Shown: positions 7,924 to 63,860 of the stretch, one piece after another
Numbering within the stretch: the first letter of the stretch is position 1
How the letters are laid out: every line of letters begins with the position of its first letter
NCBI GenBank assembly: GCA_019843655.1
Contig: JACDQD010000011.1
Span: 13,682,604 to 13,746,603, forward strand
From: Lethocerus indicus
Lineage: Eukaryota; Arthropoda; Insecta; Hemiptera; Belostomatidae
DNA length: 64,000 bases
Direction: 5' to 3'
Notes under the pieces: generated by a model
What the model saw: the letters and a program-made list of their open reading frames with translations, nothing else
Database searches by the model: none
What the model was told of the DNA's origin: nothing
Translations under genes and position numbers: made by a program

Positions 7924-8740
7924 GGTCCGAAACTATCGCGCCACCTTAACAAAATTTAAGACACACGCGCCGCAGTCACCGTACACTAAAAATAGCTCGA
8001 AGCCGACGAATAAACATAACTCGACTATATCTGTACATTCCTCGGAGAACGCTCTTATTTTAAACCGACGATTCGGCTCATTACCGAAACTTTAGTCACG
8101 AGTCACAAGTCCGGTGGAGAAAAGGGCGTAAGCAACGGTAAGAAAACAAACTCGGATTGTTTATAAACATAGTTGGAGCGGTGTCCGATATAACCTAAAT
8201 TACCCGATAAGTGTAACATTCGTAAGTGTCCAATGTTAAATCGTTGCCTACCTAATAATCAGGCACCAGATACGGCTCAACGATTGTTCGAAATACTGGA
8301 CAAACCTAACGAATTTATAAATGGGGGTAATACTTTTAAATTACGAAATATATTTTACACGGTCAGCGCACAAGTATACAGTCAATATCGAACATGAAAG
8401 ACGGCCTCATGTTGGCAACACTGTTGAAATTTACTTCACCGATGTTAACTACTGAAGATATCTAACCTAACTTAGTTTCAGCTGGGGAACTGTTTCGAAT
8501 TAACGTTAACTGGGAATTTTAAACCGATTTGACCAGTTATATTTCTATTTTCTTAACGTATATATGTATAGATTTTGAATTTTTGAGTTTTTGAAAGGTT
8601 TGGTGTTTGGATTCCACAAAGGTCTGAAACAGCGGCGGGTTCACTGCAGAGGTATGTGGTAATATTGGAGAAGGCGGTAGGATGTTTTAATTTTAACGCG
8701 TATTGCCGGCTGAAAGTGTTTTCGGCTGTTACAGGTGACC
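7924..8740. promoter_or_regulatory. Divergent SON / IK promoter region and 5' UTRs
   Basis: 817 bp separate the SON start codon (minus strand, 7923) from the IK start codon (plus strand, 8741). The stretch holds both 5' UTRs. On the IK side a UTR intron is visible: donor GCAGAG|GTATGT after 8651 and acceptor TGTTACAG|GTGACC before 8735. No TATA box at a sensible place was recognised, which fits a housekeeping promoter. Exact transcription starts cannot be read from sequence. Confidence 0.7.
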
Positions 8741-10901
8741 ATGCCGGAGTACGATTATAACGATGACGATCGGTCGCACCGATTGACCAACGATGATTTC
8801 CGACGCCTGCTAATGACGCCCAGATCGTCGGCGCCGCCCTCCACCCCCGCCTCCTCCACGCACACCCCCACCGCCGAACCCGTAGACACCAAGAAGCCCC
8901 TGCTGGTAACGATCAAGGATGACAGGGGCGAACGGCGTAGGAAAAAGAAAATATTCTACGCCAAGCTGAAGAAACAGGAGGAAGACAAGTTGGCCGAACT
9001 CGCCGAAAAGTACAGGGACAGAGCGAAAGAGCGCAGGGATGGCGTCAATCCTGATTACCAGGTGGAGGACCCGATGTCCACCTCCAGCGGGTACAGAGCT
9101 GTCGCTCCGGACATCAAATCCGGGATAGACGCGGCCGAAAGGAGGCGGCAGATGATTCAGGAATCAAAATTCTTGGGCGGTGATATGGAGCACACCCATC
9201 TTGTGAAAGGTCTCGATTACGCCCTCTTACAGAAGGTCAGAAGTGAAATCCAGATGAAGGAACAGGAGCAGGAGGAGGAAATGGAAAAGATTGTCGCCAA
9301 ACCTAAAAAGGAGAAAAAGGTGAAGGAAGAGGAAGAGATGGAATTTAAAACTCGTATAGGACGCAACGTGTACAAAGTTGCGATGGGAAATAAAGATATT
9401 GAAAAGAATCCGCTTTACGCACCCGGAAGGATGGCCTACGTTGTAGAATTGTCGGATGAGATGGCAGACAGTGATATCCCCACGACGCTGCTAAGAAGTG
9501 TCGCCGATGTTCCCAGTCAAGAATCAACCACGACGCTCACTACCAATGATATTGTCATTAACAAATTGGCTCAGATTTTGTCGTATCTCCGCCAAGGGCC
9601 TCGTCATCATAAAAAATCTAAGAAGAAAGATAAACAGGTAAATACGACTTTTTTAATTTTCTTCCGGGGGATAATATAAATTAAATTAGCACCCTCCTCA
9701 ATTTAAAGCCCTAAAACCTTATCAAACCTTGGAATTCTACAGTTTTTACATTGTGCGATTTTTTTAAAATGTTAACATACAATTCCACCATTAATTTTAT
9801 GCTACACGATATAAATCAAAATCCTCTGATGTTGCAAAATATAGTATCTCGTAGGTTCGTGATGTTTCTGTCTCCTCTCAGCGGTTTGGTCTTTTGCCAG
9901 ACCGGTCTAGCAAAAGACCAAACCCGACAGAAACATCACGAACCTACAGTATTTGTCGCAGACCACAAAACAGGTAATTATTATAAGTATCTCATTATTT
10001 TGTGAAGCCTTTGGCAATATATTCTTTGGCATTTTTATACCTGTATTATTTGTCCATTTGTACACGATTGAAGTGCTAGGCATTTGGAGGTCGGTAGTTT
10101 CAAATCTGCCTGGATGTTAGTGTGTAAATGTTAGTCATAAGTATGGATAATGGAGAAAAGTACTCCTTCCAATGGCAAGAACTCGAATGGCACATTATAA
10201 AACTGAAAAGAAAAGGGGGGTCGATTGGTCCCTAAGGATCATACACGGTAGGTAATTTGCATTCAGTCAGAATAACAATTCCCAATTTTACAGATCGAAG
10301 ACGGAATTTTCCCCGACGCCGGAGATTACATTCCGACGAGCAGCAAGAGTAACGAACAGCGCAAGAAATCGTCCAACTATTTCAAGGACAGCGACAACAA
10401 GGCGGGAAGTCCGGTCGCGAGGTCTTCGGGAGAGGAGCGGGCGAAGAAAGGGTCGGGCAGGGGGCAGGGTCCTGCGGGCCGGCGAAGAAGGAGTCGCGAG
10501 CCGCCGGCATACTGTCGAGGCTAGCCGCCGAGCCGACCGGCTACGCCGAGTGCTACCCGGGACTGGACGAGATGCAGGACGCCATCGACGACTCTGACGA
10601 CGAGGTCGACTACACGAAGATGGACCAGGGCAACAAGAAGGGGCCGGTCGGCCGGTGGGATTTCGACACGCAGGAGGAGTACAGCCAGTACATGAACACG
10701 AAGGAGGCGCTGCCGAAGGCGGCCTTCCAGTACGGCGTCAAGATGGCCGACGGCCGCAGGACAAGGAAGCACAACAAGGAGAAGAACGAGAGGGCCGAAC
10801 TCGACCGAGAGTGGAACAAAATCCAGAACATCATACAGAAAAGAAAGGGACCCGACAACGCCGATCCCGGAACTCCTCAGTTCAAAATGCCTAGATATTA
10901 A
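8741..10901 (+). CDS. IK: IK/RED spliceosomal B-complex protein, frameshifted in last exon
   Basis: IK (RED) is a nuclear protein that partners SMU1 in the spliceosomal B complex and is needed for its activation. Coding exon 1 is 8741-9637 (299 codons; ATG follows UTR acceptor ACAG at 8731-8734). Coding exon 2 is 10294-10901 (acceptor TTTTACAG, stop TAA). The N-terminal RED region is clear: LTNDDFRRLLMTPR near residue 20, then FYAKLKKQEEDKLAELAEKY, DYQVEDPMSTSSGYRAVAP and ESKFLGGDMEHTHLVKGLDY. The C-terminal RED region has GYAECYP, DDSDDEVDYTKMDQGNKKGP, GRWDFDTQEEYSQYM and KEALPKAAFQYGVKM. About 500 residues compares with about 557 in human. The frame set by exon 1 meets TAG at 10522-10524, while the conserved C-terminus is in another frame, so one base appears to be missing before it. 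Poly(A) signal AATAAA at 11012-11017. Confidence 0.92.
9638..10293 (+). other. IK: IK intron
   Basis: Intron of 656 bp between coding exons 1 and 2, donor CAG|GTAAAT and acceptor TTTTACAG|ATC. It carries the palindromic repeat at 9851-9974 (separate entry). Around 10065-10140 there is a block with a weak tRNA-like B-box (GTAGTTTCAAATCTGCC) that could be the decayed head of a SINE. Confidence 0.85.
9851..9974. repeat. Palindromic copy of the ribozyme repeat in the IK intron
   Basis: The left arm, from GTAGGTTCGTGATGTTTCTG at 9851 to about 9902, and the right arm, about 9903-9947 and ending CATCACGAACCTAC, are near-perfect reverse complements; the right arm lacks about 10 bases (AGCGAGAGGA). 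The centre is AGACC|GGTCT, the palindromic stem III of the hammerhead-like motif. The tail CAGACCACAAAACAGG (9959-9974) is shared with the copies ending near 14213 and 31837. Each arm corresponds to the part of the family 3' of the predicted cleavage site, so this looks like two downstream halves joined head to head. Confidence 0.8.
10294..10901 (+). other. IK: IK last exon with apparent -1 frameshift
   Basis: The exon opens in the frame continued from exon 1 (IEDGIFPDAGDYIP, matching the family) and runs to TAG at 10522-10524. The conserved C-terminal half (from about 10500, including GYAECYP at 10539-10559, to MPRY then TAA at 10899-10901) is one base earlier in register. The switch must fall in the GC-rich stretch about 10430-10510, which contains runs such as CAGGGGGCAGGG. 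A hidden short intron was considered: the GT-AG pairs I tried here do not restore the frame. A missing base in the assembly is the simplest reading; a real null allele is the alternative. Confidence 0.8.
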
Positions 10902-12974: not shown

Positions 12975-15073
12975 TTAGGTAGCGCTTTCGACACTTTTGT
13001 CGACCTCGGGCTCTTCGATGATGACGGAGTCCTGGCTGATGGGCACGGCCGCGTCCACTAACCTCTGCGAGCTCGAGCTCTGCTCAATATTGTCTCTGAT
13101 GGCACGCCTGAAACTGTTCCTCAGTATTTGGGCCACATCGGTAGCGGTCAGGTTGGAGCTGGTGGCCGCCGCCGCCGCAGCCGCCGCCGCCAAATCGTTC
13201 CTCCTCAGTTCTGTGCCGCTTTCGCTGATCACTATCGCCACTTGGTTCCTGTCTGCGGCTCCGGTCAACGACTGGTTGATCTCGACTAGGACGGCGGCGT
13301 AGTCCGGAGGCGGAGGTAGCGGCGCCAGCAGCTGGGGGCCGCCGCTGGCCGCCCCCTCCCCGCTGTTGCCCAGCACCGAAGTTATGCGCCGGACGCTCCT
13401 CCTGAAACTCTGTCGCAGCAGTTTCGCGATCCTGAAACCGAATCGTCGATAAGAGCAAATGGGTCACGGGTACAAGTGATAAAGAGATACGAATAAACTA
13501 CATTTCGCGTTTTTCTGTCCCCTCTCGCTGGTTTGGTCTTTTGCTAGACCGGTTTCGGCTGCTCGCCATCTTCAGTAACTTTTTGGCACTTTCGATGTTT
13601 TTTGGGCATCCTCACTGCACTGTCACTTGTACTGTGGTGGTTGTCATATACCTGTCTTGTTATTGTGTTTTTGGGGATGTTGTTGGTCTTCTTTGTGTTG
13701 GGGGGGGGGGTTGGGATTTTGTTAATCCGCTTAAGTCATGCCGGATTGTCCTTCAAAAGGGGGAGGTTCTTTAGTGGGATTAGCTGGCAAATATAGAGTC
13801 ACTTTGGGAATTTATCTTTTGATTTATTTTGTTGCTTTGTTTATTCTTGAAAATCTCCATATTCTCTATTACATCCATCTCTTTCCCTTTCTTGCCCCGG
13901 TGTATTAATTTTAAGGATTTGTTAATATTAACAAATCCCCTCAACACAAACAAGACAAAAGCAACATCCCCAAAAACACAATAACAAGACACCTATATAC
14001 ACAGGACAAACGGACAACCACCACAGTACAAGTGACAGTGACAGTGCAGTGAGGAAGCCCAAAAAACATCCAAAGAGCCAAAAGTGACTAACACCGCTAC
14101 TGAAGATGGCGAGCAGCCGAAACCGGTCTATAAAAAGACCAAACCGGCGAGAGGAGACAGAAACACACGAAATCTATGGTATTCCAACCCCTCACAGACC
14201 ACAAAACAGGTATGTTGTTTTGTATGAATAAACTGTAAAAGCGGATACGAATACGTTCTTAGCCCACAAGTTTCGCGTAATATTTTGTAGTCATAAGCTT
14301 TAGTAAAGAGTTGACAGACGGGGGATGAGAAGGTGATGAAAAATATTTATAATAAATGTAGGCCAGGTGGATCAAAGCCTACAAATTATCCCGATATAAC
14401 TGCATCCTTAAGCTACCAACCGATACATTGACTTAGCCAACTGTGCAATCTTCAGCTCGGATAATAGCAATAACTTGGCCCAGTGCTATCAGAGTCCACA
14501 GAGTTAAACTCACTGAAGCCTCTCAAAGAAGCCCACACTTATCCCATGTGGGCTATTTTAAGCGTTTGGATAAATTTCGTGATAGAATAAAATAATGTTG
14601 TATACGAATGTACGTAGAAAATACATTATGCGAAAATTAAGGATATTAAAATTTCCTTCAACAATAATTTAATAAAGTATAATACCTTGCGCCAGTGGCT
14701 GTTGTATATGAAGGAGGCGGTGTATATTTTGGAGGGGGATCTTCGATTGTCGCTAATGAAGGAGCTGCCGTTGAACTAGTTTCTACATCATTGGCAGTCA
14801 ATTCTGGCACTGAAGATGCCGTTTCTAACGGCGGTCTGTACAGCAGTTGCATTCTCTGTTGGGAAATTGGAAATGTACAGTAAAATATATTTGTTAAATT
14901 GTTGTAAATAATAGAAGAAGATCTGGCTCTTCCACTATCTCCCCCTGCAGTGGTCACCAGAGGTGTCCTACATAGGAGAATGTGTAGACACTAAGAAATA
15001 ACACCCTACTAGATTTTCAGTACACTGCAGCCAATATCATGAATGATTCGCAATTTTATTTTAATGTAATACA

Positions 15074-27100: not shown

Positions 27101-30100
27101 TTTTACATAAATATATAGCAATAAATAGAAATTCCGTCTCTAGCAGCCGATTTGGTACTGATCTAGACCGGTTTTCGCCGTCTTCAGTACCACACCGGGA
27201 CTGTGGCAGTGCAGGCAGGATGCTTCCCTTTAACCGGCACGGCCGGCGGCCAATCCAAATAATAATTTCCCGATAGCGTTACGGCGACGTTTGGTCGACG
27301 TTTTTTCCCGAGTAAGGGGCCCGCGATACTAAACACGCACAACGGCGATACCCCCGCTCTTTCAAAGTCATAAATGATAAACCGAAGAAATAGTTGTTAA
27401 ATATTGGACCGATACTCCAACTTGAGTAGTATATTTATCAATCAACAGGGGGCTATGAAGCGATTAGGTATAAACTTAACCAATAAAAGTAATTATTCCG
27501 AGAACTTCAGTTGGCGTAGACATTCGGCCGAGGATAAACGCGATTCGCGTAGGTTTTTTTTTACTGTAAAATAACTCTTATATAATGTCAAGCGCTATTT
27601 TCCGCTCCACTCAACGCCGGTTTCGAATTATCGCCATTCAGCCAGTAGCATGCCGATCTTAATAGAGCGAGGTACCTACGCGGACAACAGTAGCAGTGTA
27701 GGGACAGATGTGGATCTTCTATAATCTGAAGTTGAGGATGGCGGGAATCCGAAACCGGTATAGGGTCAGGATCGAAAAAACCCCACGATTTATAACTTTT
27801 ATTCAACTTTTTTTCAGAAACTACGAATCATGCGGACGACCTTTACTCTAACTAGGAATCAGCTGTTAAACCCTTGTATATTGTCCGTACGCGTGTGAGG
27901 TCTGTTTATCGTACAATGTTTCTAATTCAAAGTATTAAAATAAAAACAAAATTGGAATTTTTTTTAATACTTTTCCCTCCTAGCGATTAGTAATACAGCC
28001 TTATCACTCCAAGGTTGCTTCATATCACGGGAACCGGGAGAATAACAAAGCCGATAATACGACTTTCGGTTTTGTTCGGAATAGTTCTCAGTTATATCTT
28101 AAGATATGACAGACTAAACGAAGAGCGGTATATTTTAACGGTTAACCGTAAGGATAATGCTAAATTAATTTATTGTAACCACAGAAAACCATACGTAGGC
28201 GGATAAGCCTTTTGAACGTTCATTCAAAATAAAAAAAAAACAAACAGTACACGCGGCTATCACCACGTTCTGATATATTTTTTGTTTTAAACACAAAATG
28301 GCTTTTAACCGGTCTTTTTTAGGTCAAAGTATGCAACAGGAGACGACTTCGTTACACTGCTGATATTGAATTTCCTTTACAGCGTTTTAAATTGTAAATT
28401 TTCTGACCCCGGCGGTCCCGGGGATTCCGAACATGTACAAGTCGGTAGGAAAAATCGCACTAGCGATGGTGATTCAAAAATAAGTATTCATAATTAAGTA
28501 CAGAAAACTTAACGACCCGGGCAGGCGGAGGGTGAATTTTTTAGTTCCGCTACGCATAACAGTTTAAAGCGCAAAAAGCGCATTTACTCGGGCCCGACCG
28601 GAGAACCACAAGCGTAACAGAGCTGCCACAATCCGCCGCGATCCGTGAAAACAAAGAGGGAAAAAACGTTGGACTGGAAATAAAATTGAATTTACCTTCA
28701 TCTTGAGCGATATTGAGTGGCGACTATCCGCTAGCCGGCCAAAGACTGGCTTCACCGTTAGCCTGTCCCGTTGGGCGACCCCTACCACCAGATATATCCC
28801 ATCCCCCCCTAACTACTACAGCTTCATCGCCGTTCTCACCCCACCGTTTCGACTTTCCGCCAGCGTCAGTACCATTTCGAGAAAACCGAGGTTCGCGGTA
28901 TGATCCGATACGCTGGAGCTGACCAACAATCCGGTCCGAAATCGTACCGATTGCGTGGTATACCTGTTGGTGCCAGGAAACAGTTCACTAAACCTGATAC
29001 ATACAAGAGCAAAGCTACGTAATAAAATTGTAAAATAAACTTCATATTCAACCCGCTATTCAAACTTGTCGACAACATCCACCCGATAATCCAAAAAAAA
29101 GGCCTCAGCAATGACATTCCGAAACGCCAAAACAACGAGAACTACCGTCCCCATACAAGTGGACTGAGGTTTTGCCAGGAAGCGAGTGTTGACCCCAAAG
29201 TGGAGTCGACAAAGGGACAAAGGGATACCAAACCCCGATCGCCTTTATAAGGACACGCACAATCTTGAATGTGTAACACGTAGGGTTGTCCCTCCTTATT
29301 AACACTCGATTAACAGCAGGACGGTGCGAACGTAATTATTTTTCTACTCGGCAAGGCGGGGAGCAAACTATTCTGGGAAACAGCTTCGGACACTGAATTT
29401 GAGAGATTCTTTCGAGTAATTCTTTCTCAAAAGGGCGAGAAAACGAACAGAACAAGAGGCTACTAGCGAAAATTACCCTACTGGAAGATTACTGAAAATA
29501 ATTAACAAAATAAAAGGCCGAGGGCTGTGTTAAAATGAACACTACAATACAACTAAAACTGAACTACTGAAATGTTAGTAACAAGGTATTCCGCAAACGA
29601 AAACCGGGCGGTGTTTTTTTATTTTTAAACCGCCCAACGATTTTAGAATACAGACCGTTGCGCTCACGGTAGGTTTAAGATCGGGGGTTCAGATAGAAGA
29701 GGAATTATATCGGGATCGTTTAAACTGGAAATATGAATGAAGTTATACCAAATGAATCGCGCGCGATCGATATGAATCTAAATTTATAATCGCGTTTTGA
29801 TATCCCGACTGAATTAAAATTATCCGCGGACCATATTAGAATTTGATGCCGGGCCAGATAATGAAAAATTATCTCCGACATAGTTAGTAATCGTGTATTA
29901 GCTGCAGTGTGTAGGTGTGTCGCGTGAAAGTAACGGGAAACAGCTCTGAGTTTAAATTTATTTTCTCATAATGTATCTGTTAAATGGCTGAATTGACTTG
30001 TTCTCTCTGATAATTATAACTTCTAATACAGTAGAAAAACAATAGATTGTTAATACGATTTCATTAATTAAGAAGTTACATTTTATTTTTTCTCGCGGAA

Positions 30101-33100
30101 AATTTCGCTCATTATTACTGTTGTAGAAACAAATTGTTACATATTTATTGGGTCGATAGTTGACCACGTGTGATATGAACACTATATAATAGCGCCTAGC
30201 GTAATACGTTCGAATTTCTTCCCAAGATATTTTTACTTAATTTTTAAAGTTGAAACTCCGAGTTGTGGAGGACTCGACTGATTATTTGTGCCCATAATTA
30301 TGAAAGTGGTCTAAGTCATATATTTCTGGTTTCGAGATATTTAATGAATTGCTTTCGAATAAATTAACAAATATTTTTATATTATGCAACATTTTAATTT
30401 AGAATTTTATTAGTCTAATGATTAATGGAAGTTTACTATGAATATGAAATTCTGTGTGAATTTCATATGAAAATGTTGTATTTAAAGTTTGAATTGACTT
30501 AGACCACTTTCATAATTATGGGCACATTTATTGATTCACCGAATCGGTAAATTTTTATACGCGATAGGAATCCCCCAGGTGTACAGTTGATATACTCGAA
30601 TGGAAAAACCTTCGAAGCCCAGTTCCTTTTTATTTTTTCGGCCTCTCCTAAAGGAATCAATTTTTTAATTCCTTATACAAATTAATCGACGCGTTGGTAT
30701 TATTTATCTTATTCGGGAGAGGAATCTTAGAAATGGTGAATTCTCTGGTTGATCTCTACCAGTTGAGGCCTCCCGGTTGAACGTCCTCTCGCGCTAATCT
30801 CAGCCATCTCGTTTCCTGTTGCCCGTCTTTTCCTGTTCTGGCGTAGCGGGCATTATCCCCGGTAATTAATTGGCTAGGACTCCGACTGGAGGTAATCAAC
30901 CTAACCCGCTTCGGGATTCCTCCCGGCCGTTCTCACGGACTCCGATAATAAGAGGAATATGAATATAGAAGACAAAAAAGGGGCATGCCGATGGCCGTTT
31001 CTCACGGGTCCCCGGGGCCCTAAATTTTCCGGGTAGGTCAACACTACTGTACTGAAAACACTACTGTGTATTGGCTCAACCGGCTATTGACGTTCCATCG
31101 CTAATAGCTTGTGTGCAATCAATGATAATAAATTGGCCAATAATCAACTGGCGAACTGCCATAGTAAAATATGCGGGTTTCACCTCAATCCACCTCAACC
31201 GAGTAAGGATTGCGAAAGAAATAGAATTGATTAAATTCAATATTCGAAAATCAATAGGCTCGTTGGAAGTAGTTTTATCTCTCATCTTAATTGCCAGCAG
31301 GAGACCCGACGGTCGATGGGGGGGGAGAGGGGTTCTCCGGGTCTGTTCTCGACATGAAACAGTTTACGAGTTGTCTGTTTTGTTTGTTGTTCGTTGTCAA
31401 TATTGTTTGGTCTAGTTGGAGGGAAAGGGGATTAAGTATTTACAGCGCTGAGGGGAGATAGGCCGCAGGACGGCGTACACGTGGTTGTCTAGAACTTGAG
31501 GTAAAAAAAAAATAATTTTTTTTCATACCGTAGGTTTGTGTTGCCTCTGTCTCCTCTCGCTGGTTTGGTCTTTTGCTATGTTTGTAGTGTTTCTGTCTCC
31601 TCTCGCTGGTTTGGTCTTTTTCTTTTTCGGCCGCTCGCCATCTTCAGTAGTTAGTCAGTTTCGGCACTTTGGATGTCTTTCAGGCATCCTCACTGCACTG
31701 TCACTGTCACTTGTACTGCAAGTGCTACAGCAGCCGAAACCGGTCTAGCGAAACCAAATCAGAGACCAATCCAGCGAGAGGAGGCAGAAACACCACAAAC
31801 CTACCGTATTCCAACCCCTCGCAGACCACAAAACAGGAATTTTTTTTCATTTTTAAAAAAATTTCAACTAAAATGACCAAAATCGAAGAAAATCCATAAC
31901 GAGTCATCGCTCAACACAGCTCACCGGGACACTGATAGAAACAGACAGGAGGTCCCCCATTTCTCGGGGAATACTAATGACGATGGCGAGAAGCCGAAAC
32001 CGGTTTTTCGCCGCAGGAGCCGGGAGACAGACGGATCCATTCCAAGACTGGTTCCAAACCATCACGGAGCCCGAAATAGTAACGAAATTAATTCCCCTTT
32101 CTACTGTCAAAATGTTTATAACATACATACTGCACATTATTGAGTCTAATTCGTGATTAGATTAAACCCGAATGCCTCTGCCCGAAGCGTATTCCCAATG
32201 TTTAGGTCTGGACCTTGGCTTCAACAAAGTTCAAGTGGCACAACGAGGGTAGAAAGGTCAATTTAATTGAACAGAAAAACCACTATCGCCGAGGGTCATT
32301 TTTCAGTGACAAACAAAGATTTTTTACACTTAGCAAAACGTTATAGTAAAACCATTCGAGTGCTATTTCGATTCGTCGTGTCGATAATATTGCCGCATTC
32401 TTGACGTTTCCATCGGCCCATACCTTTTACCAGGTCACCTTCCCAGGTTCTTTTAGTACATTTCTGGTTGCTGTAAAACTGTACTTAATTCATGCTCTAA
32501 ATCAAGGAATTTAACAGAAAGTAGTTGCGGTTAAATTTTAGGAACTGCGCCTGCGGGTATTGCCAATCAAATCAAAATAAATCTTAAGCAATCCTCAGGA
32601 TAGCGGGTAAAATCGAACCCTGGACACGGGGGTTGAAATTCGTTGATAATTAAAATAGATTGTGTTGTAATTCGACACAATCTGGTGAATTTACTCATTT
32701 TTTTGTTCGACTCAGTTTGGCCACAATCCAGCCTACGTCGCTAATATCGCAATTAGTAACTGAATTAATGCCATTGCAAAATAATGACAAGGAAAGTCAA
32801 AGCTATTATTATTTCGCTCGTGATTGAATAAATACAGGTAGTGTATTACATGCCTAGGTATAATGGGAAATGGGCCATTTCGTTAGAATTTTTCCTTCGG
32901 GTATTCAGGACAAAGTGCGTCGGGTCGCAGACTGACCTTTACGCCCACCCAGGGAGCTTTATTTAATGAATCTACGCATATATCAGATAATGCCGACGGA
33001 CCTAGAATTAATTTTTATTTTGAAAGTTTCTTTTCACGACGGAATCTGTCCCGTTGTGAAGAGAAACACTGGAGAATCCGAGTTACCGTTGTTTTAATTT

Positions 33101-36100
33101 GAACTGTCGGAGGCCGCTCATTCTCTTTTGCCCCCCTCAAGAAATTAAGGTGTAAAAAGTGTTTTCACCGTTCTCCGAATAACTCCGAACGGGCTACCTG
33201 TTAACAAGACGAGATAAGAACTTTTTCCCAGATAACATTTCAATTCCCTAATTGGGAAAATTTTGCTCTTGAAAACATTAGGGCGACACGTTCGGGGGTG
33301 TTGAAAATTTCTCATTACTACGGGACAGAATGAATTAAGCTACTCTCGCACGGTGTACGCTCGAATATCCCCAAGCTAAGACCTTAATTGGGCGATTGAT
33401 TCTGTGCAAGTGCGTGGGAATATTGTACGAAATATGCTGTACAATTTATAGGAATAAAGATGTCTTCAGCACACGTTTCAAACATGCACGCTTGAAACGT
33501 CGACAGCTTGAAACATACCGGTTTGCGAAACCCAGACCCGGGATAAGAAAATTGGAAGAAAATCCCTGTCTATAAATTCGAGGAAAGGTCTAATTGGTGA
33601 ACAGAGTTGTCAGTGCCGTCTTGATAAGAGTTACAGGGAAGTGCAAACGAATATAAACAAGGGAGCAGAACAGTTGACCAAAACAGGACGAAATACCGAA
33701 GGGCGGGTTTCCATTTGTGACTTTGAACGAAACATTTTTTATGCCACTCATTTCAACGAGCGGTCATGTTGAAATTCCGGGCCGGATTCTCAATCACCGT
33801 AGCGGTCGCTTGCCTAATTGAATTATTAATGGTTATTATGGAATTTTTTAACCGTCTTTTTTATATTCAAATTGTCTACATAGGGTTCGATTTCGTCCAT
33901 CGTTCACTTCCTTTCTCCGCGGATGAATGTACATCTAAATATCCGCGCGTATAAATTTTCAAATTTCCGACGAAGTGGAAACAGGAACTAGTAAATTTAT
34001 TGCATTGTCCATTTCATCATCGCTATCGAATCCTACTAGATGTAGTAATTTTATATTATCAAATCACAATGATGTGGGTTGGGGTAGTTTTCTATAGTAC
34101 CTGTAGTATTCTCATTGACATGGTCGTTCGTTTACTTGTATACGTCTCAACTGTTGTCTATTGTTTCTTGTCCCTTCGGTAACTTATATGCATATATTTA
34201 TATTGCTGTCAATATTATTAATATTTATAAATCGAATAGACACGAATAAAGAATCCAATTAAGGGTCCAGCTGTAGATCAAGAATACGCCGTCTCCTAAA
34301 CGGTCGCTCGGATATTCAAATGCCTATCGAATACGTGAACATTTACAGAACGAAGGTCTCAATTAGACAATCGGAGGGGCCGATGCGGTCGACATACGGG
34401 CGGGATACTGAGGAGAGCCACCGGCCGAATACTGATGAGAACCACTGTCGGCATTCAGAGCGCTCGAATCTAGGAATGCTGTCCAGGGGACCCCGCGGAC
34501 CTTGGGAACTTTGTCCCCATTGTTTCCGATCGCCGGGACAATTTTCACTGTGCAAGCGGATTGGCACACTTTCGGTGGGGAGGTCCCCCGCAAAACAGCT
34601 TCGGGGTCAGGATCACAGGGCGCCCGCAGCCCCATTAAACCGATGGGGGACGAAGGATACGGGGACATTGTATTCTATACATTGATAATTTATGAATGTT
34701 CACAGCTGTTGGCTACAGCCGAACCACAACATCCCCTCGGTATATGTACGGTAACTTAACGCGGTTCCGAATTCCCGATCTTGAATTTCTATCCTTCTTC
34801 CATCGCTCAGTGCATTCGTCCGGGTCAATTACGACTGAATGTTAGGATCAAGAATATTTCCATTCTTGAAACCATTTAGCTCTATATTTAGGATATTATT
34901 CGAGTGTATGACGTCAGTCAAGACTGAATTCGGTTTGAGTATCGAGCTATAAATACCGTAAATAAATCAATAATCGTTCTTTAAAAACTGATTTAGATTT
35001 GTAGTATTATTTTAGAATTCGTTGAACCTGATCGCAACCCCGACGAACTACCGCACACGAGTTTCGACTTTGAGCTAAACACGAGGACAAATTAGGGCAT
35101 ATTATTATAGTCGTTTTTCGTCTAAGAACTATTCAGCACGAAGAGTAAACTATCATGGAAAAAAGTGGCAGCAGAAGACGACTCGAACAATGGAACGGTG
35201 AATTAATGCTAGAAAGAAGCACATCTCTTCTCCCACTACTGTGAATGGGTAACGGATCGTTCAGACAGGAGCCTTCAGATTACGACAGAACAGTAATAAT
35301 TACTAGTCTTATAATGTCTACAACTACAGGTGTAAGCTTCAATCTACGAAGATATAACGGGATACAATTTTCAACACTACTCAGATGTATTACTTCCACT
35401 TGGCTAGACAGATTTCGGGTTCTCACCGTCCACGGTAACACAACGTTCGTAGTATAGTTAGAATATGGTATCGTACTTTTAGATTTAAATGTATCTTCAT
35501 ATTTTAAAAATTGCAGGAACCCGGAAAACCGGCCTAACTTACTACCGACATTTTCGTTTCTTAATGTAAGCAATTTTGATGGACACAAGCGAAGATTACG
35601 CCAACCAGGTGTAACCGGCGCGTTTTGTGATCGGTTGCTCTTCACTTTTTTTTTAAAACCGGTTTTAGAGCGTTTTCATTTTTCAATTCGGAACCCGGCC
35701 GTCAAAACGGGAACCGTAAAACCGACAGCAGTTCGGGTTTCGTCAAGGGTTTTAGACGGTTTGAGAAGCTGTTAAGGGGAAGATGGGAGCGCACTGAAGC
35801 TACTGTTGCGTGGAGCGGAGAGGGCGATGGCCCACCCGCTCCAGCTCCTTTCAACAGTTCATCAAAGAAAATTATGCCCCTGCGTTTTCTGTACAAAAGA
35901 ACCATTTTTTTAACAATATTTGTCTTTTGATAGGGCACAATGAATTTTTAACAGAACAATTTGAAATGTATTAATTTGATTTCATCAATGGGATTATTTT
36001 TATTTCAGCCTTTCGTCCTATTAGTAAGGTTATTTAAACGTCCTGTAAGTCAATTATTTAGAACAATATGAACAAATGTATTGTAAACCTATATTAGATA

Positions 36101-39100
36101 TTTATTAGTGTTACTTAAGAAGTGACATTGTGACATTTGTCTGACATCGGTTAGTAAATAATAGCAACAATGATACTATGTTTAATACAACTAATTTTAA
36201 GCAGGAAACCCTAAGAAAATGGTTCACAGACGCAGGAAAAATTAACAATCGTAACCGTACGGATCACACGGAGGGGTGTGATACAACCTCCGTTTCTTTC
36301 TCACCGCTCGTGTATAATAGACACGAGCATTATGCCTCAGGTATAATTATATTTACAGTTTCTGATTCTATACGCGCAGTTAGACGCTATAAAGTCCAAA
36401 CTCAACCGGGTATTTTGTTTTGTTTTTCATCATTCCAGTAAAATCATTAAAAATTGTTCTAATTACACGTTTCTATATACGTATCTATAAAACGGTTCTA
36501 CACACGTTCTATATACTCTCTGTATATATAAAACTATCTAAGGCGTTGTAAGGCCTGTCTTGTAAGGATATACGAGTGTCAGGGTCTGTATGTCGGACGG
36601 TCAGATGTACGTCAGATCCCTTTAAATAAATAACCATAGAAAATTTGATTTTCATGAAAAATAGTATACGTTGTTGTCACAAACGAGGATGTCTGACACT
36701 CAATAAAGTCCTTCGAAAGAAAGGACATAGTTTATTTAAAACATTCCCATATTTTCAATGCGCAGAGGCGGAGAGCTGAATCCTGCAAACAGTTCTGGCC
36801 GTCATGATAAGCTCATATTTTGTTTTTTCCCTCGTCAAGCCGAAAGGCTCTATTCGGGCTATGAGCAAATACGGAAGCGCCGGCGGTCCGGAACAATGCC
36901 GCGAAAGGCCAAGGACAGATAAGAGCAAATACCCGAGAGCGTTTCCACTTAGCCCATTCCCACGTGACCTAGATGGGAGAATAGTATTTGAAAACTATAG
37001 CGAGATTTCCCTCGAAATAAGCGTGCACATTATAAGGCCGAACTAGGAATTAATTTTAGGGCTCCAAAAATTTTGTCGGAGTACTTTATCACAGCGATCG
37101 TCGCCAGCATTTAGCTAGTGATACAAAATAAAGACCGTGACAATGTCTAAAGAGACTAACTCTCCTTCGTTATTCTCTACTCGTCAATAGTGCTAATCAA
37201 ACATCAATGTCGCATATTGTATTTTACAGGTGTGGTAATAAAGCAGTTATGAAAAAAATTCGACCGCCTCTGACATATCAAGTCGCTGAGGTATTATATA
37301 TAGTACCGGGTACTTTATATTGGTTCAGTGTAGTGACAGGAAGTTTCATCCGCAGCCGACATGCCTAAGCACCTTAATATATTACAGATGAACGCCTCTA
37401 ACCGGAAGCAGAAACCGGTTTAGGCTAAGACCAGAAGAGCGAGAGGAGATCGCAGTCATGATAACAGAACGTAAATTGAAGACAGTTCACAGTCGATTAG
37501 ACTTTTTTCGAAGGATACCCTCATTTCAGTTCGAAATTCACTATGTCCTGAATAAAGTCAGGAAAGTTCTAAATCTTACAGCTCACAATCTATGGACTAT
37601 AAAGCGTGGCAAAATTTTTTTATTATAATAAGGAATAAATAAGGATACGTGTCGTTTATATATTAGTAGTAACTACAACTTATACGACACAGCATTTTAA
37701 TGATTGACTATAGAGTTATGCTAGGTACCGGTTTAGAACGACTTTCTAGAATGATTCACAGCGTGAATATAACGAATGGATTTTATTACGTTTGTAAAAA
37801 TGGATAAAAAGAAGTTATTATCCAGTACTACGACTTCGATATCGGAGCCACCAGACGTACTTTGAGGTAACTGATAAGGCGCCACAGCCGCAATACAAGA
37901 TGCGATATTGGAACCCGCAATATTTTTTTTCGATAAGCACTTTTTTTTACTGATAAGGAAGTATAAGCCCGATAAGTGCTAAGGCGAACTAAGGACTGGA
38001 TTAAGTGTGGGGCGAAGATTTCTACCGTTTTGTAACCTTTACGTAACCTTTAAACACATAAGACCGAAGGTGAATTTCTGAATGAAAATGTACTCACGGG
38101 CCTGGATCGTCGTTGTCGGATGTGGTCTGCTGAGTGGTTCGGTATTCGGGCGCTTCTTGACGCGGTGGTAGAGGCGGCGGCAGGCGGATTCCTCCGGAGG
38201 CGGCAGAGGGTCGGTGGGTCGTTGAGCCTGAAATGGGTGAGCCGCCTCATAGAGGCCCTCAGCCAGGGCTGGCCCTCGGAGGCGGGGTCGTCTCGGCCGG
38301 CGGCCGCCTCTACCGTGGCCACGCTGGCAGTGGCGGATGACCGCAGCTGGTCGGTGGCCGGCACCGGCGGCCGGCTCTCCGCCGTGGCGGTTCCACTCTT
38401 ACTACCGGTCGTCATAGCACTGAGGCTCCTCGAGCGTCGGCCCGTAGCCGCCCCCACCACCCCCGCTCCACGCTCCCCTCTCCGACCCGCCCCCGCATAG
38501 CTGCAGCTGCGCCGGTGCGAGCCTGTTACTCTCCTGCAACAAAATATCTTACTATAGAACATATAGAATACAACATGCCTATGATTATCATATGTTACTT
38601 AAACCGAAAACCGACTCCAAAATTGCTTTTGAGTAATTGTTTTGATAAGTTCTTCCGCATCGAAGAACCAGTAACATTACCTTAACAAGTTCGTAATACC
38701 AGCCATGTGGTCTGCGAGGGTTTTGAACAAAAAGTTAAAAAACAAAAACTGACATAAGCCGCTTAACGAACATCTCTCCTCTCATTCCTTCTAAAAACAA
38801 TACATGAGATAAAATATATATATATATATATACATACACATACACACACACACAAAGACAGAGAAAACACAACAACACACACACACAACAGATGCAGACA
38901 GGAGTCCCCACAAATCAGAGTGACTCACCAACGTACTATACTAGGCACAGCTGCGGATGGCGAGCAGCTCAAACCGGTCTAGTCCTAATCAGCGAGAGGA
39001 GAAGATCGAGAAAGGTGATACAAATCACACTTATTTTTATAGTTAAAAGAAATGACTTGAAACTACAATGGAGAGAGATTTAATTAATTGTAAGTACCCT

Positions 39101-42100
39101 ATTTCCAATTATTCAGTTTTCAAATTATGAAAGCGAGACTATAAAAAAATCGGACGCACGTATCCTGGGTATCGGTCTCAAGGGACACCTCTATAAGGGA
39201 AGAGGAAAGGGATTGAAGCCATAATGTCGCACACCTGGCTCCCTGTGTTCTATGGCCGAGAAAAGAAAAGCGTGATTTATAAAGGGAAGGGGTTTAAATA
39301 ATAAAGGGGGGATTATTAAGAACGTCCAGGCGGGCTACGGACGCGTGACCGGGCATACGGACGAACCGGATGACCAAGCTCTGAACCACACAAGATAGCT
39401 AGTTCCCGTTACCCGTTATTTGTCAAACCGAAGCAGGAGAATTATTATTTAAAATCTGATTAAAATGCCGCCTGGCAGCAGAAGCCCACATTTAACATTG
39501 AAAAATTGACAAGAAAAATTCAGAAATATCGTTTCAGTTCTGCAGATTTAAGAGACCGAGGTTAACAGCACCTCCGATCAAAGAAACGGATCAATTGAAA
39601 AGTTCGGCTCCAAACGCATTAAACCATATTCTTAAGGTCGTTGCGTGAAGTCAAGAGATATGCAAATGGCCAAGTAGGGAGCGCGTACAGAACTGGAGGT
39701 ATATTTACTGGATATTTCGTGAGGGTCCGAGGGGTCGCGTGATAGAGCAGTCGCCGCTGCCCTTACGCGGAGGTGAAGCCCCGATGCCTTAAAATAATGA
39801 TTTCGGCGGCCGAGAATATTTAAAACAAAAAAGGAAAGAAAAAAAAGGATCTCAAAACCACTTATACAATACCCCGGCCGGGAACAAAAGCCCAGGTTCA
39901 TCGGCCCGTGAAACCCTAGCGGTGTCCTTACATAGATATCTGGTGTCCGGAAGCCCAGATGACACACATTTCCGCCATTGATCATATAGCGACTCCGAAA
40001 AAAAACCCCTCATGAGCTATGAAATTGGAGATATACATAACCCGAATCAATTGAATAGTGTCTATCCTATTGCTTTCAAACTGACGAAAGCCACCGCACT
40101 TTCATTAATTTTCTAATAATATTCCAGTGAAATCCTTTAAACCTTGGTATGTCTCGAACGGCATAATCATTTCTGTTCCGAAAAAACATAGTTCGATGTT
40201 AAATAAATGTGTATTTATGCAGCATTCGTTAGATTGGCGACTTTCAGGGCTGGACATCAAACGAACGCGGCGACTTGTTGCGCAACAATTAACTGAAATC
40301 GAGCGGCTGGAATTTCTGTTTATCAATCGTGCCGCCCGCGTTTCGCGGAACTGCCGGCAAGGTAATTGGCGTTAAGTGGCTTCAAGAAGCGGCCCACCTC
40401 GGACGAGCGATATTACGCAGTGACAGGCCGGCAAATGACCAATGATTGTATCATTCACCTCCCCCATTCGGCTAAAAATAAGCAGGTATTAAGCATTCGG
40501 TGCGCGGGGAAGCGACCAGCCCAGAAAGTTGTAAGAAACTTGAATAGAGTAAATTCATCTTACGATAAGAGTTATTTGTGGAATAGGAAATCGAGCCATT
40601 AAATTCTCGTCTGATTGCCATCGTAATTAGAATCGATTTCCCTCCCCCTGAAAGTGGGGAAATAGTCTGTATTGATTGTATGAACAGGAATTTCAATTAC
40701 ATACAAATTACTGTTATATACATGTACAATTATTGAGTGTACTGTCAGTACCGTAAATGCTACTGATCTGATACAACAGTCGTAGTTTGGTACACAGCTT
40801 ACTATTTTACCATTGTCGAAGATATTGTCGAATACAAATAAACAATTATAATCGTCTTCAATTGTAAATTTGAATATCTGGCCTCTTGGGTTTTCTCAAT
40901 GAATTAACCAGTTCTGTGACAGTGCTGACGGGATGCTTAATCGAAAATCAGTATGTTATGTTGTTTCTGCGTTAGTTACTTTTTTTCTTAACAGCGGCCC
41001 CAATCGAGTAGGAACATATAACTTAGGCTCGCCCATTGTAGCGCGGCGTTCCCATATGCAATTAGGTCCGAGGACGTCGAACGGGCTACTTCGACAGTCC
41101 TTCCAATTAGTGACACTGAGCGTGCTACGTCACCGTGTCAAGGTGTCACTGCTGCACAATCGGCCCTCGTCAAGTTTAATAACATTTAAATACAATTTTC
41201 ACGTACCATTATACGGTGAAATTAAGCGAACCGGGGAATTTCGCTTCTTCGTACGGAACTGGCACGGGGTTGGAAACGTCCTTAGATTGTTCAGTTGAAA
41301 ATACATCGCAACTTCTCACTCGATACAAGGGTGAGTTCATGAAGTGTATGGCGTAACATCGGACAACCGTCCTCCTGACAAACTTTATATTTATTACGGT
41401 ACACATTACAGACAACCGACATGCGATTGAAGGTGGCGAGCAGCCGAAAACTGCCTATCAAACGACCAAACTAGGGTAGACATAAGTTCGAGAAAACAAA
41501 AGATAAGACCACTAACCGGGTAATACAATTTTATTATTATGAGGTTTTGAATGAGGAATATAATGACTCGTCCTAATTTCAGTCCCCTCTATGATTATTT
41601 GATCCTAAGCCAGACCGGTTTAGATCACTATCGTCATACGATTCTGTTTTTGTTTTTAAGAACAAAAATGTTAGTCAATCCTACACGAAATGGACTAGGC
41701 GGCAATAGAAGCGACGAATTCAAATATGTCCTGTTATGTCAGAGGCTCTCGGGCCGGCTCTAATATAAACGCTGACCGCCAGACCCAATAAATGTCGAGG
41801 GCGGCCCTGAGAATTGGCCTAAATATAACTTCTTTAATTTGTTTTTGTTTTGAAACTGCATAATTTTCGCCTCTGGACCGGTTTCAATAAATGAAATGGA
41901 TGAGTGGCTCGGGTTGGGCCTTGTCATAGGCGTCCGACTAGTTTTCATAATTTGTTTACTCACGACTCAGTAACATTTTTTGCAATTTCAAGAAGAGAAT
42001 AGAATCTGTTTAAACTTGTTCTGTAATCTGTTGACCCGAACGTCGAAATTAAGATCTGCCAATAGAAAAGACACGTATACAGATTTTCTCATCAGAACAC

Positions 42101-45100
42101 GACATCTGAGTATGGTTTCAAAAAATGGGTATGAAATTCATAGGGAATGTGTTTATTCCGAATATCTCGAAATATGTGAGTTATTCTGATGATATATGTT
42201 TTAAAATAATAACTGTATGCTAAGTCTCTCCCTTGTTTACCTCTAAGATAGACCTGTTTCAGCTTCATGCCGTCGTTAGTAGTATTCGGCTTGTAAAATA
42301 GCGAAGTACATGCAACGGCGCGTGTCAACATTGTTACTAAGCTATTACTCAGCAATCGCTACTCCGTGCAATTTAGTAAATAACCGGTGGTGAATACACA
42401 TTCGGCCCCTGGAATACGTTTGACAGAAATCCGCCAATCACTAGAGCAATAGAAATGCTTCCATTCATTTGGAGGTCAATAACAACCCTCGGTCGGGTAT
42501 AGGAGGGATCGTTTTTTGAGGCCCGGGTCATTTTCGGAGCCTTGGAGGTGATTTTATTCCGTTATTTTGGAAAGTCAAGGTAATAAGCGCTACGGGCGGT
42601 ATGGGTACCGAGAGTTTTCGGTATAGAGAATAATGACCTTCCATTCACGAAGAAACCTGTGTCAAGAATTACTCGACGTTAGTACGTTTTTTGCTGCCCA
42701 TGAAGTAACAAAAATAGGCACACGCTCGATTTCATACGAACGGCCTCATATGGCCATAATCCAGTAATTACATTCCGTACAGTGATATATAACATCGTGA
42801 CTGTTACTGGCCAGGATGCCTCAGTAATTCACTGAGCTTATACGCTTATACGATAACATAAATGAGTTTCGAAAACAAACTACAATACATGTCAATAGCT
42901 CTGAAACTCAGTACCAGAGACACGGCGAGGCTTATATTTTTTTCCGTGCACAATATCCACGGGAGACGGGTCACGACCGACTTCCATTTCTTCCGGGCAG
43001 TACCCCATTTTACGGACAATTTAGAAACAGTCGCCTAAAAACCGAACGTTTCTCGTTTCAACGGGCGTCAAGCCCGTGTAATTGCTAATGGGAGAAACCG
43101 AAACAAAACAATCCCGCTTGCGTGCAACGGGAGGGAGGGGCTCGCTCGTGCTTCCTCTGGGGCCGTCGTCCAATAAAGGCCGACTCGCGCTCTCGGTAAT
43201 TAATAATTTATTTACAACGCCAAACGAATTCTGATATTCTGCCCGTCGCACAGATCGACGAAAGTGAGTTTATTAAATTTATTTCTCGTATCTTAACATT
43301 CGACGCGTTAATGTTCTTCGTTAATCTCTCAAATTCGATATTAGTCGGTTTAAAAATTGGGTATTATCATAGCGAATGTAAATTGCATATTTTACGTTCG
43401 AAGAGTAACAATTTTATTTCGCTCCTACGATTTTTTCTATCCTGCAATATAGAGATGTACAGGCGCCCGTCGACCGGCCATAAATCACAATGAATTACAC
43501 GTTAATTTTAATATTATTTTTATTTCACCAATGTAAAAGTTTTAAATGTTAGTAATGTGACAATAAATTCTATGCCATGTTCGCAAATTTGAAATATTAC
43601 GACTTTTCGGTTTAGTTTGATCCGCTAGAAACCGTGTTTCGTCGAGAAACCCTATCTTCCCGCGAGGGGGGACCTCTTAAGGAGGCCCAGAAGGACTCTG
43701 GAGGACTTTGAGGTTTATCATCTGTGTCGCTGATACAAAACCGAGGGTGGAAGTCGTCATTCCTTTTGTAGGGTAAATTTGACGCCGTCGAGTAGTTGCG
43801 TCGTTATTTAATTATCGTAAAGCTTCCGACGGTGGGGCAGAAAACGGGGAAAATTTCGCAAATTTCACTATTTTTACGAGACAGACCGTGAGAATATCGA
43901 TCGGACCGATATCTTTCGGGTACAAGCCGAGTTTTCGGAACGTCCGCCCGACCTCCAAGGTTCCCTCTCACGAATACCAATTAACTCTTTTCCTTTTGCC
44001 GTTCCCCAGCGAAAGTGTTCACCGGGAGGCGCCGACAACGGCTGACAGAAAGGTACAAATAATAAACCGGAGCGCGAGTCTGAAGACGAGCATTGACTGT
44101 GAACACAATGGGCTCTGACTAATGGCCCCACCGACCCCGAGGCAAATTGAGCTCCGGATTGACCCCGATTTTTCGTAAGGGGATTTCATATTCGAGGTTT
44201 ACATTTCCGACAGAGGAATATTTCTACTGGGCCCAATTACACCCATAATCTTATAAAAATAACATTCAATAAAGATATGCGCGCCCTGTCTATAAAATGC
44301 CGTCTTTGATCTGCCGATACCCTATAAAAGTAAATAAAGAACGAGAAATGCATTCCACGGCTAAAGAGAATGGTCGAAGAACTTACACTGTGAACGATTC
44401 CATGCTGGATACGACTGATGGCATATTGTGACTATAAAAATCGGGTATTTTTATCAGGTAAATTCCCTAATCCAGGAAAATCGAATTGAAACGACGATAA
44501 TTGAAAACACGACCGATTGTAATTGGTGTGGTGAATAATCCCCCCTTCCTCCATTGTGACGCCTTAAGGTGATGCAATTACGGCAAAATCGATTGCGGAC
44601 CTATTTTTAGAGTCATTTAAATTTTGAATTGATTATTTATCTTGTCGATTATGTATTAACTTGATTTCAAATGTAAGAAAAGAACGCATATCGGCTGTGC
44701 ACTGTTGCGCTTCATAAATCCAGTAAAAAGAAATGTTATATTTCTTCGTCTAAATGTTTATATGTAGAATCGGTACTGCAGAAACCCTACGAAATGATAA
44801 CATATTACATAGTGACATTATCCGTAATGTACATGAAAAATACGCTTTCACATTTTCGAGAAGCTTAACGTCAGCAATAGTCTGGACGCTGGGCATGAGA
44901 ATACTGAAAGAGAATGGTCCCCAACAGCGAGGAAACCTGACCAGCCACCTGACAAGCCAGGCCACACATAGCCCGTTAGTTTCAATGGCATATCTGTACT
45001 CCATTTCCGACTGAAAGTTGTGCTTAACAAGTAACGATCGACGATTATATATATCGAGCGCAATCATACGTTGTTAATATTAATCGGTGTCGCTGTGAAG

Positions 45101-52989: not shown

Positions 52990-53033
52990 ACTGGACGGCC
53001 GTTTCGGGTCCTCTCCTTCTTCAGTAGCATTCG
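52990..53033 (-). repeat. Divergent ribozyme-repeat copy
   Basis: On the minus strand: GAATGCTACTGAAGAAGGAG, AGGACCCGAAACGGCCGTCC. It keeps CUGAAGA, GAAAC and a GUC triplet and has a longer palindromic stem III (ACGGCCGU), but stem I no longer pairs. Confidence 0.5.
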
Positions 53034-59647: not shown

Positions 59648-59692
59648 GTAATGCTACCGACGATGGCGAATGGCCGAAACCGGTTCGGTCCA
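59648..59692 (+). repeat. Ribozyme-repeat copy
   Basis: GTAATGCTACCGACGATGGC, GAATGGCCGAAACCGGTTCG. The core is CCGACGA (one base from CUGANGA); stem II GGC/GCC, GAA and ACCGGU are intact, but a T replaces the cleavage-site C. Confidence 0.55.
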
Positions 59693-60606: not shown

Positions 60607-62047
60607 TCTTAGAGAAAAATCAACGAATGGAGATAGAAGATGGTAAGAACAATGGTATTCTATCAAACCGCGTGATATCGGTTAATAAAATTTCGTGAAG
60701 ATTCAGTAATGTGACGAATCTGCGACCATCGGTCTTCAGTTATGCCGATAACAAAACTGGCTTTCGAACATTTTCAAAAGTCGGCAGTTGTATTTTTAAC
60801 TTCCAATTTCCATATCGAACAATCCCTGGGGGCACCGTCTCGTTTTACATCGAATGAGCTCGTGACTTCTCAGAGGACTAAGGCCGTCCTCTTACGTAAA
60901 CCGTTATCTGAAGTTACCATTGTTAATTTTCATCCTGGTCAATTAGAATTCAGCTCCCGAGAGAGTGAAAAGATTGTTCCGCTTAGGAACAATATCGTTC
61001 GAAAACAATTGGATCCTCAAGTCGGGACCTAATCAGAACAACTGACCGTGGTCCTTTCTATTCAGACTTGCGGGCGCCGATGTACGGAACGATAGGTACA
61101 GACGGTGGGTAGAACCCGAAACTGGTTTAAGATATAAATTAATATTAAAGCCCCAATAATGTCAATGTCATCTCAGAATTCAGGTAACCCTTAGAACGAG
61201 TACACCCGTGGTTAAAGAAAGAATTCTTATTTCTGCCAAGCTCAAAAAAAGTGATATTACTAGTGATGCTACTACACCAGGAACTTGGACATGTGGCTTA
61301 CATAACGAGTTGATTGTGAGTTGACTGAGAAAAATTATTGAACACTCTTTGGACAAATTATTCTACAAAAGCGAATTACCGTCCAATCAGTGAGATATAT
61401 TTAACGCCCATACGGAAATAAGCGCTGCGTTGTGAAACGGACTGAATTTAATTCAAAGTATTAGCCATCAATAATTTGCCAGGAAAATGCCGGCCAAGGA
61501 CGATTTTTTACTTCAACAAAGTTAAATGGTAGTTTCCGAGATTCATACGCTGGGTATTTAAACACTAAGCGGCGGATTTAAATTTCAACTTCGTCCACAT
61601 CCGTGTGTTGAAACCAAATTATTCAAACGTGCCTAGATTTGATAAATTAAAAAGAGGGATTTGACAGCGTCTTTTCCATATTTGAAGGACGGCCGCGCCT
61701 CTACCAATACGCCCAACATCAAAGGATAAAACCCAGACCCTAACCTGATGGCCAGGAAAAGTTAGAAGTATCGAACGAATTTTACAAGCGTTGGAACAAT
61801 TAGAATTGGGCATATTTATTATATATAGTTGTCATTCGGGCAATGCACAGTTGCATGGCATATGCAATAAGTGATAAATAGCGAGAAAGACCATCAATAA
61901 TTATGCCGCAGCAAGAACTGAACAGGAAGGCTGGCTATCCATTATGCCTAGTATGAAATATGACATAAACTTGCTTGACAGGCGATGCCGCAACAACAGT
62001 TTTATATAAAACGAAATAAAGGAAAATAATTCAAGGAAGACGAACAA

Positions 62048-63240: not shown

Positions 63241-63814
63241 AAAAAACAAACAAAAACGGGTCCAATCCGTCCCAAAATTGGTAGGAATAATCACCTCCGG
63301 GACACTGAATAAATGTTTCAAAGAAATACCACTGGTCCATACGACTGAAGAGGATTGAATCGAATAGAGGCGGTATTACTACTCAGAGTGTTATTACTAC
63401 CACCCAGAAAACGAGTTAAGGTAGCTTAAAATCCACAAATAAATTAAGCCATCTCCACAACAAAGGTTTCAATGGTCACACGGTACAGAACTGTCGAGCT
63501 CAGCCAAAAATACCGTTTTTGGCGTCACCAGAGGAAAACGCCCGTCGCCTAATCAAATGCACGTCCTTCGCACGACATATTCGGTTTGTCGACCCTGCGG
63601 TACACCAGGAGTGCCGGACACCGGCAGAGCCCATCTCGTTCGGCATGTTGGATAGGAATCAATACTATTTATGGTACTTGCGATATTCCGTACCGTCTAT
63701 AGCATTTGGTGAGTCACCTGTGGTATTGGACGCCCGTGTGGCATGCCTGAAGTTTTACTGCAGTTAAAAAGATTACAGGCAACCGACTTGAGTGAATCAC
63801 CAGCTAAGAAAGAG

Positions 63815-63860
63815 TTGTGTAGATGGCGAGCTGCCGAAACCTGTCTAGCACAACCCTCGC
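63815..63860 (+). repeat. Ribozyme-repeat copy
   Basis: GTGTAGATGGCGAGCTGCCG, AAACCTGTCTAGCACAACCC. Stem II, GAAAC and the GUCUAGC side are kept; the CUGA part of the core is lost. Confidence 0.5.

Follow-up and report, generated by a model that had tools for sequence, protein, structure and literature searches.

A hammerhead-like motif in a dispersed repeat of Lethocerus indicus and its probable origin in the pLTR of a Penelope-like element

Introduction

What kind of element has spread a short repeat with the core of a hammerhead ribozyme through an insect genome, and is its RNA likely to be cut and closed into circles? The question was raised by a stretch of Lethocerus indicus DNA of 64,000 nucleotides (the window, by which we mean this whole stretch), which is eukaryotic nuclear DNA. 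The initial annotation described the interval 13500-14213 as a dispersed repeat with a type I hammerhead motif and attributed it to a non-autonomous family, related to Penelope-like elements (PLEs), whose RNA may self-cleave and circularise. The locus thereby touches upon two unsettled questions, namely how PLEs integrate and what purpose their hammerhead serves. Traits that have been ascribed to PLEs are a hammerhead that lies across the start codon, two alternative 3' ends, head-to-head pairs and target-site duplications (PMC11167929, PMC3846280).

Results

The minus strand from 13579 to 13543 reads GTTA-CTGAAGA-T-GGC-GAGCA-GCC-GAA-ACC-GGT-C-TAGC. All core residues of a hammerhead are present, stem II comprises 3 bp, stem I comprises 4 bp (one being G-U), and the triplet is GUC with C17 at 13547, after which the cut is predicted. 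The elements of a type I core (CUGANGA...GAA...N-UH) thus occur in order and with three helices, apart from a single inserted base between A9 and stem II. The core, the 4-bp stem I and the GUC triplet, all claimed in the initial annotation, were confirmed by the sequence as well as by a descriptor scan of both strands of the window, in which 0 or 1 inserted base was permitted between A9 and stem II. The motif at 13543-13579 was the single match and was found solely in the form with one inserted base; a descriptor without the insertion gave zero matches in the window. In Markov simulations the descriptor matched nothing in 20 runs when no core mismatch or one was allowed, and it matched once in 8 runs with 2 mismatches. 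A second hammerhead-like motif is located on the plus strand at 14096-14132 (predicted cut after C at 14128). Its core is the same, and as read from the sequence just the two inner pairs of stem I form, which is why it escapes the descriptor. A regular expression for the core alone was rejected because it matched unrelated sites in the window too.

In Rfam no hammerhead family is listed for the window at the curated cut-off, and a relaxed search of 13400-14300 (E up to 10) yielded no hammerhead and just weak matches to other families. The minimum-energy structure of the isolated 37-nt RNA is not a hammerhead (z -0.20). Two such RNAs of the motif ending at 13579 are predicted to pair via ACCGGU with both stems II formed; no such dimer was predicted for two RNAs of the motif at 14096. 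The proposal of a hammerhead-like motif with a minimal, self-complementary stem III is supported. We conclude that the observation of the motif is confirmed, and that self-cleavage by intact RNAs of the family would be plausible. The single pattern match on a viral contig (L001:7765-7788), which has the same extra U, was set aside as chance-like, and Rfam calls no hammerhead there; this contig carries, by our own reading, bacterial or phage-like genes and was excluded throughout.

The motif is present far above chance. An ungapped scan with the 37-nt motif at a threshold of 22/34 detected 18 sites in the window, where 40 second-order Markov simulations gave 0.075 on average. The diverged copies on the plus strand are found at 31973-32009 (29/34), 59653-59689 (28/34), 63813-63849, 41423-41459 and 38947-38983 (27/34 each), 27728-27764 (26/34) and 61095-61131 (24/34, with GGG/CCC as stem II), and those on the minus strand at 42247-42283 and 35403-35439 (26/34 each) and 52992-53028 (24/34). 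The alignment of the 18 window copies includes four doubtful rows (50893, 34404, the truncated 31713 and the deleted 31651). For the genome we searched the 427-Mb assembly of 209 contigs. A pattern in which the core and two stem II pairs were fixed gave 8,504 + 8,556 = 17,060 matches, a count that is somewhat inflated since the assembly seems to retain duplicated haplotypes, versus 0/0 for the reversed pattern. The haplotype duplication is suggested by 3.1-kb loci that are identical between contigs (C100/C9, C99/C4 and C99/C8); six of the 30 loci of the first genome sample were exact duplicates. When N7 was set to C and the stems were left free, the pattern gave 461 + 447 matches versus 8 + 7 in the control. 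The loci examined from these pattern searches were the first 30 among 100 places listed, all on contig 1. The claim of a dispersed repeat is borne out by the counts in window and genome alike.

Conservation was scored by leave-one-out ascertainment, each column being scored on the copies that were found without that column. It peaks at G8 and A13 (18/18 each) and is high at stem II, G5, A6, G12, A14 and A15.1. Weakly conserved positions are N7, H17, one in the loop and the outer one of stem I; C3 and U16.1 are poorly retained (12/19 each). The mean over the ten core columns is 0.85, versus 0.61 over the 21 columns outside the core and stem II. The third codon position occupied by A13 is free, and G5, A6 and G8 lie upstream of the AUG described below, so that coding alone does not account for the conservation. 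Among 30 loci of the commonest genomic form all four stem I pairs are found in 21, ACCGGT in 19 and a C at H17 in 22.

The initial annotation had also named covariation in stems I and II across copies as a check, and this gave a divided outcome: none in the window and weak signals among genomic copies of greater diversity, at a power that is low considering that the copies are decayed and the families few. In the 18 window copies 63.9% of the cells were paired versus 64.5% after shuffling, and stem I of the commonest form (30 loci) had 100 of 120 cells paired versus 100.5. The N7=C sample gave for stem II 224 of 300 cells versus 217.7 in 100 listed rows out of 908, a value attained by 331 of 5000 shuffles, and 186 of 261 versus 181.8 in the distinct rows (846 of 5000 shuffles), and for stem I 66 of 120 cells versus 58.8 (204 of 5000 shuffles).

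The inserted U next to stem II forms the middle of an AUG (CUGAAG-AUG-GC), of which the A is A9; in the left copy this start codon lies at 13567-13569 on the minus strand. The AUG opens a short frame (MASSRNRSSKRPNQRE...) that is common to many copies, and the predicted cut is located, by our own count, 23 nt past the start codon. The first codons of an open reading frame are thus combined with the hammerhead, as in a pLTR. In the right copy the AUG is followed by 35 open codons (MASSRNRS...) that reach the tail (14106-14210, plus strand; tblastn), and no Pfam family matched this frame. By our own count just 10 of the 18 window motifs have retained the AUG. A frame of 49 codons on the minus strand just upstream of the left arm (13783-13929) is reminiscent of the C-terminus of a PLE. 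Database searches with it gave no match, and in one comparison, with the copy L012, its differences were evenly spread over the codon positions (7/6/5), which gives no indication of coding constraint; it was therefore not relied on.

The locus itself turned out to be composed of two opposed copies of the repeat, joined head-to-head as pLTR-like arms at 13491-14216, close to the interval annotated before. Its limits, like the other arm ends given below, are the ends of local alignments with a single genomic copy (L020) and are accurate to a few bases. Inverted arms of 87, 62, 47 and 28 nt are among the nine listed, and a perfect palindrome of 24 bp is found at the arm junction (13915-13938). 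In L020 coordinates the left arm ends at 289 and the right arm at 321; the difference corresponds to an AC-rich tail on the right arm only (approximately 14185-14216, plus strand). The direct repeat TACGAATAAACT/TATGAATAAACT at 13488/14223 overlaps a decayed arm end and was for that reason not counted as a firm target duplication. The predicted fold of a transcript of 13491-14213 is mostly arm-to-arm, with 194 of 267 pairs formed between the arms for the plus strand and 160 of 260 for the minus strand. Two further head-to-head units occur in the window. In the unit at 9850-9976 both arms start at the hammerhead GGTC and meet exactly at its self-complementary ACC/GGT, and the unit at 31525-31843 is flanked by an exact repeat of 13 bp (AATTTTTTTTCAT) of low complexity. 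As to the surroundings, exons of a RED/IK gene extend over 8714-10901 (Pfam RED_N 350.7 bits, RED_C 186 bits), and the twin insertion at 9850-9976 sits between the RED_N and RED_C exons, in a presumed intron.

The same anatomy was recovered genome-wide. For the 3' ends 40 of 1796 first-look candidates were scored, which gave 30 loci and, after removal of six exact duplicates, 24 unique ones. The arm ends are bimodal, with preferred positions near +75 and, for the tailed form, near +105 to +119: in the 24 loci 12 fall at +73 to +83 from the AUG (short) and nine at +107 to +125 (tailed), and the remaining three run into other repeats and are unclear. The repeat thus has the two alternative 3' ends of a pLTR. 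Adjacent arms within 300 nt were arranged head-to-head in 57 cases, tail-to-tail in five and on the same strand in ten, at irregular spacing. We collected 56 distinct head-to-head pairs, five of which have an arm with an intermediate end and were excluded, leaving 51 that could be classified. One tailed arm was combined with one short arm in 45 of these, six had two short arms and none had two tails; a one-tail count of 45 was reached by 0 of 20,000 shuffles. Moreover, a word of at least 8 was shared by the two flanks in 28 of the 56 pairs, versus 4.1% when flanks were swapped between pairs, which indicates that a pair is, at least often, one insertion; the other 28 are without a flanking repeat of at least 8. 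Inverted pairs and short target duplications, both known from pLTRs, occur in this family.

Of 112 arm 5' ends, 19 cluster on two neighbouring positions some 69 nt upstream of the AUG (around 1513-1514 of L020), perhaps the transcription start of the element. Just two lie exactly at the cut site, where there is no clear peak. The 10-nt bin near the cut site (reference 230-239) holds nine 5' ends versus three and two in the neighbouring bins, so that a slight excess there is possible. A weak match at 48676 (E 3.4), which apparently begins at TCTAGC, was not used. Arm lengths on the junction side vary widely, and the short arms start at many places, as in 5'-truncated retroelements. In the copies L009, L014, L021 and L028 we observed a common upstream stretch unlike that of the window copy, with short tandem repeats ahead of it in some cases; these copies possibly belong to another subfamily.

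An autonomous PLE gene was not found in the assembly by a GIY-YIG profile and by the one RVT_1 locus examined. The GIY-YIG profile gave no match in the whole assembly (three candidates scored), a weak test because introns and divergence defeat such a profile. For RVT_1 150 matches were listed from 611 candidates, and the one locus opened among them showed no similarity to the repeat. The full-length element with a reverse transcriptase that the initial annotation suggested looking for was thus not encountered in this search, and the assignment to the PLEs is based on an anatomy that is specific rather than on the enzyme.

Discussion

Taken together, the start codon within the motif, the two 3' ends and the head-to-head pairs lead us to interpret the repeat as the pLTR of a hammerhead-carrying PLE and the unit at 13491-14216 as one twin insertion of it, a reading to which we assign a probability of roughly 0.8. 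The PLE relation put forward in the initial annotation is thereby strengthened, in contrast to the separate, non-autonomous circularising family, which is not supported for this locus. According to the latter proposal the repeat would be a retrozyme-like element: tandem hammerheads would cut the transcript, the piece would circularise and the circle would be reverse-transcribed. It is true that the type I core, the abundance and the lack of coding capacity of the copies fit such an element, and that animal retrozymes are short type I hammerhead repeats often found alongside PLEs (PMC7229834). However, the excision of a circle needs two ribozymes on the same strand, and same-strand tandem hammerheads are not what the family displays: the head-to-head arrangement prevails by 57 to 10 over the same-strand one, with irregular spacing. 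Circles are therefore unlikely at this locus. In addition, the arms end where the reverse transcription of PLEs starts and not at the cut site, and in the predicted fold of the unit's transcript the two arms mostly pair with each other. We consider the circular route very improbable, and the copy at 13491-14216 is probably a defunct insertion from which no circles arise. A foldback (inverted-repeat) DNA transposon or MITE in which the motif is coincidental would likewise have inverted arms, direct repeats at its flanks and a high copy number. Its termini should match, whereas here the tail usually lengthens just one of the arms (45 of 51 pairs), and neither the variable arm lengths at the junction nor the many starting places of the short arms agree with it; this explanation we regard as the least likely.

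A more serious question is whether the motif in a PLE pLTR is still a ribozyme. It could be a relic, or a signal for protein binding or the start of translation, in an RNA that no longer cleaves. The U inserted between A9 and stem II, the missing Rfam match, the weak covariation and the absence of a distinct cluster of 5' ends at the cut site, where just 2 of 112 fall precisely, are all in line with this, as is the case of the Poseidon-type PLE of Anolis carolinensis (PAc), a lizard element whose ribozyme shows no activity unless protein is present and is not required for insertion in vitro, protein-aided cleavage having been reported (PMC11167929). On the other hand, core, stem I and GUC have been retained jointly in the commonest genomic form, G8 and A13 show no variation among the window copies but N7 does, and 9 of the 112 5' ends fall within the bin near the cut site versus 3 and 2 beside it. 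Nor is an extra base in itself foreign to hammerheads: the plus hammerhead of the CChMVd viroid has an extra A, which we take to be located beside A9. The extra A itself is documented in PMC3705267. On balance a motif that has lost its cleavage seems rather unlikely to us, and intact RNAs of the family may self-cleave after GUC, either as dimers through ACCGGU or aided by the protein of the element.

Within the PLE interpretation, the one-sided tail bears on the mode of insertion. We propose that the RNA of the element templates two reverse transcriptions, which would be primed from both ends of a staggered break in an AT-rich target and would each start inside the beginning of the reading frame. 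The far ends of the two cDNAs would then be joined, in some cases through short self-complementary sequences, one of which would be the ACCGGT of the hammerhead, as suggested by the unit at 9850-9976. Two-ended priming with two start sites would explain both the absence of pairs with two tails (0 of 51) and a target duplication around the whole pair. A plain snap-back of one cDNA would be expected to give two tails, and the lack of such pairs argues against it. Moreover, the PAc protein cuts and extends both strands, which points to two-ended priming (PMC11167929). That two-ended reverse transcription is the rule for these PLEs, with two start sites producing a tailed and a short end and with head-to-head fusion of the cDNAs, is nevertheless advanced tentatively, with a confidence that falls somewhat short of even. 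The roughly 17,000 core matches and the many twin insertions provide the numbers to test the model of two start sites. The same numbers could show whether cleaved RNAs get inserted, of which the 112 arm starts give no clear sign; with PAc, too, it was mainly uncleaved RNA that was inserted in vitro (PMC11167929).

The combination of a hammerhead with the anatomy of a PLE makes the family a member of a kind that has already been described; the one-sided tail is known as well, and the count given here sharpens it. Among hammerheads, those of Lunse et al. 2017 reportedly share the type I core and the minimal stem III and were proposed to act as dimers; the one-base insertion beside A9 distinguishes the present motif. 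Like animal retrozymes, the repeat is short, abundant and non-coding and has a type I hammerhead, whereas retrozymes are arranged in tandem on the same strand and form circular RNA, and the pairs found here are inverted and end elsewhere (PMC7229834). For the Penelope families of the rotifer Adineta vaga, inverted pLTRs, palindromes at the junction, a tail on one pLTR and short target duplications have been described (PMC3846280), the same anatomy as in our head-to-head units. The authors favoured self-priming on an antisense template, and their elements have open reading frames of 830-842 aa, in contrast to the end pieces in very many copies that we observe. A close resemblance is also seen to PAc, where the hammerhead extends across the start codon, C3 and G8 being located upstream of it, where reverse transcription starts in an AC-rich stretch 111-118 nt into the open reading frame, and where the optional tail corresponds to what lies between two start sites (PMC11167929). 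The Lethocerus repeat likewise has its hammerhead across the AUG with G8 just before it, a presumed start stretch that is AC-rich, a tail between two presumed start sites and AT-rich targets. The two differ in the position of the cut (26 nt past the start codon in PAc, 23 here), in the open reading frame, which was not recovered here, and in the use of the start sites: with PAc both strands used the same ones in vitro, whereas the genomic pairs of Lethocerus mostly combine one tailed and one short arm.
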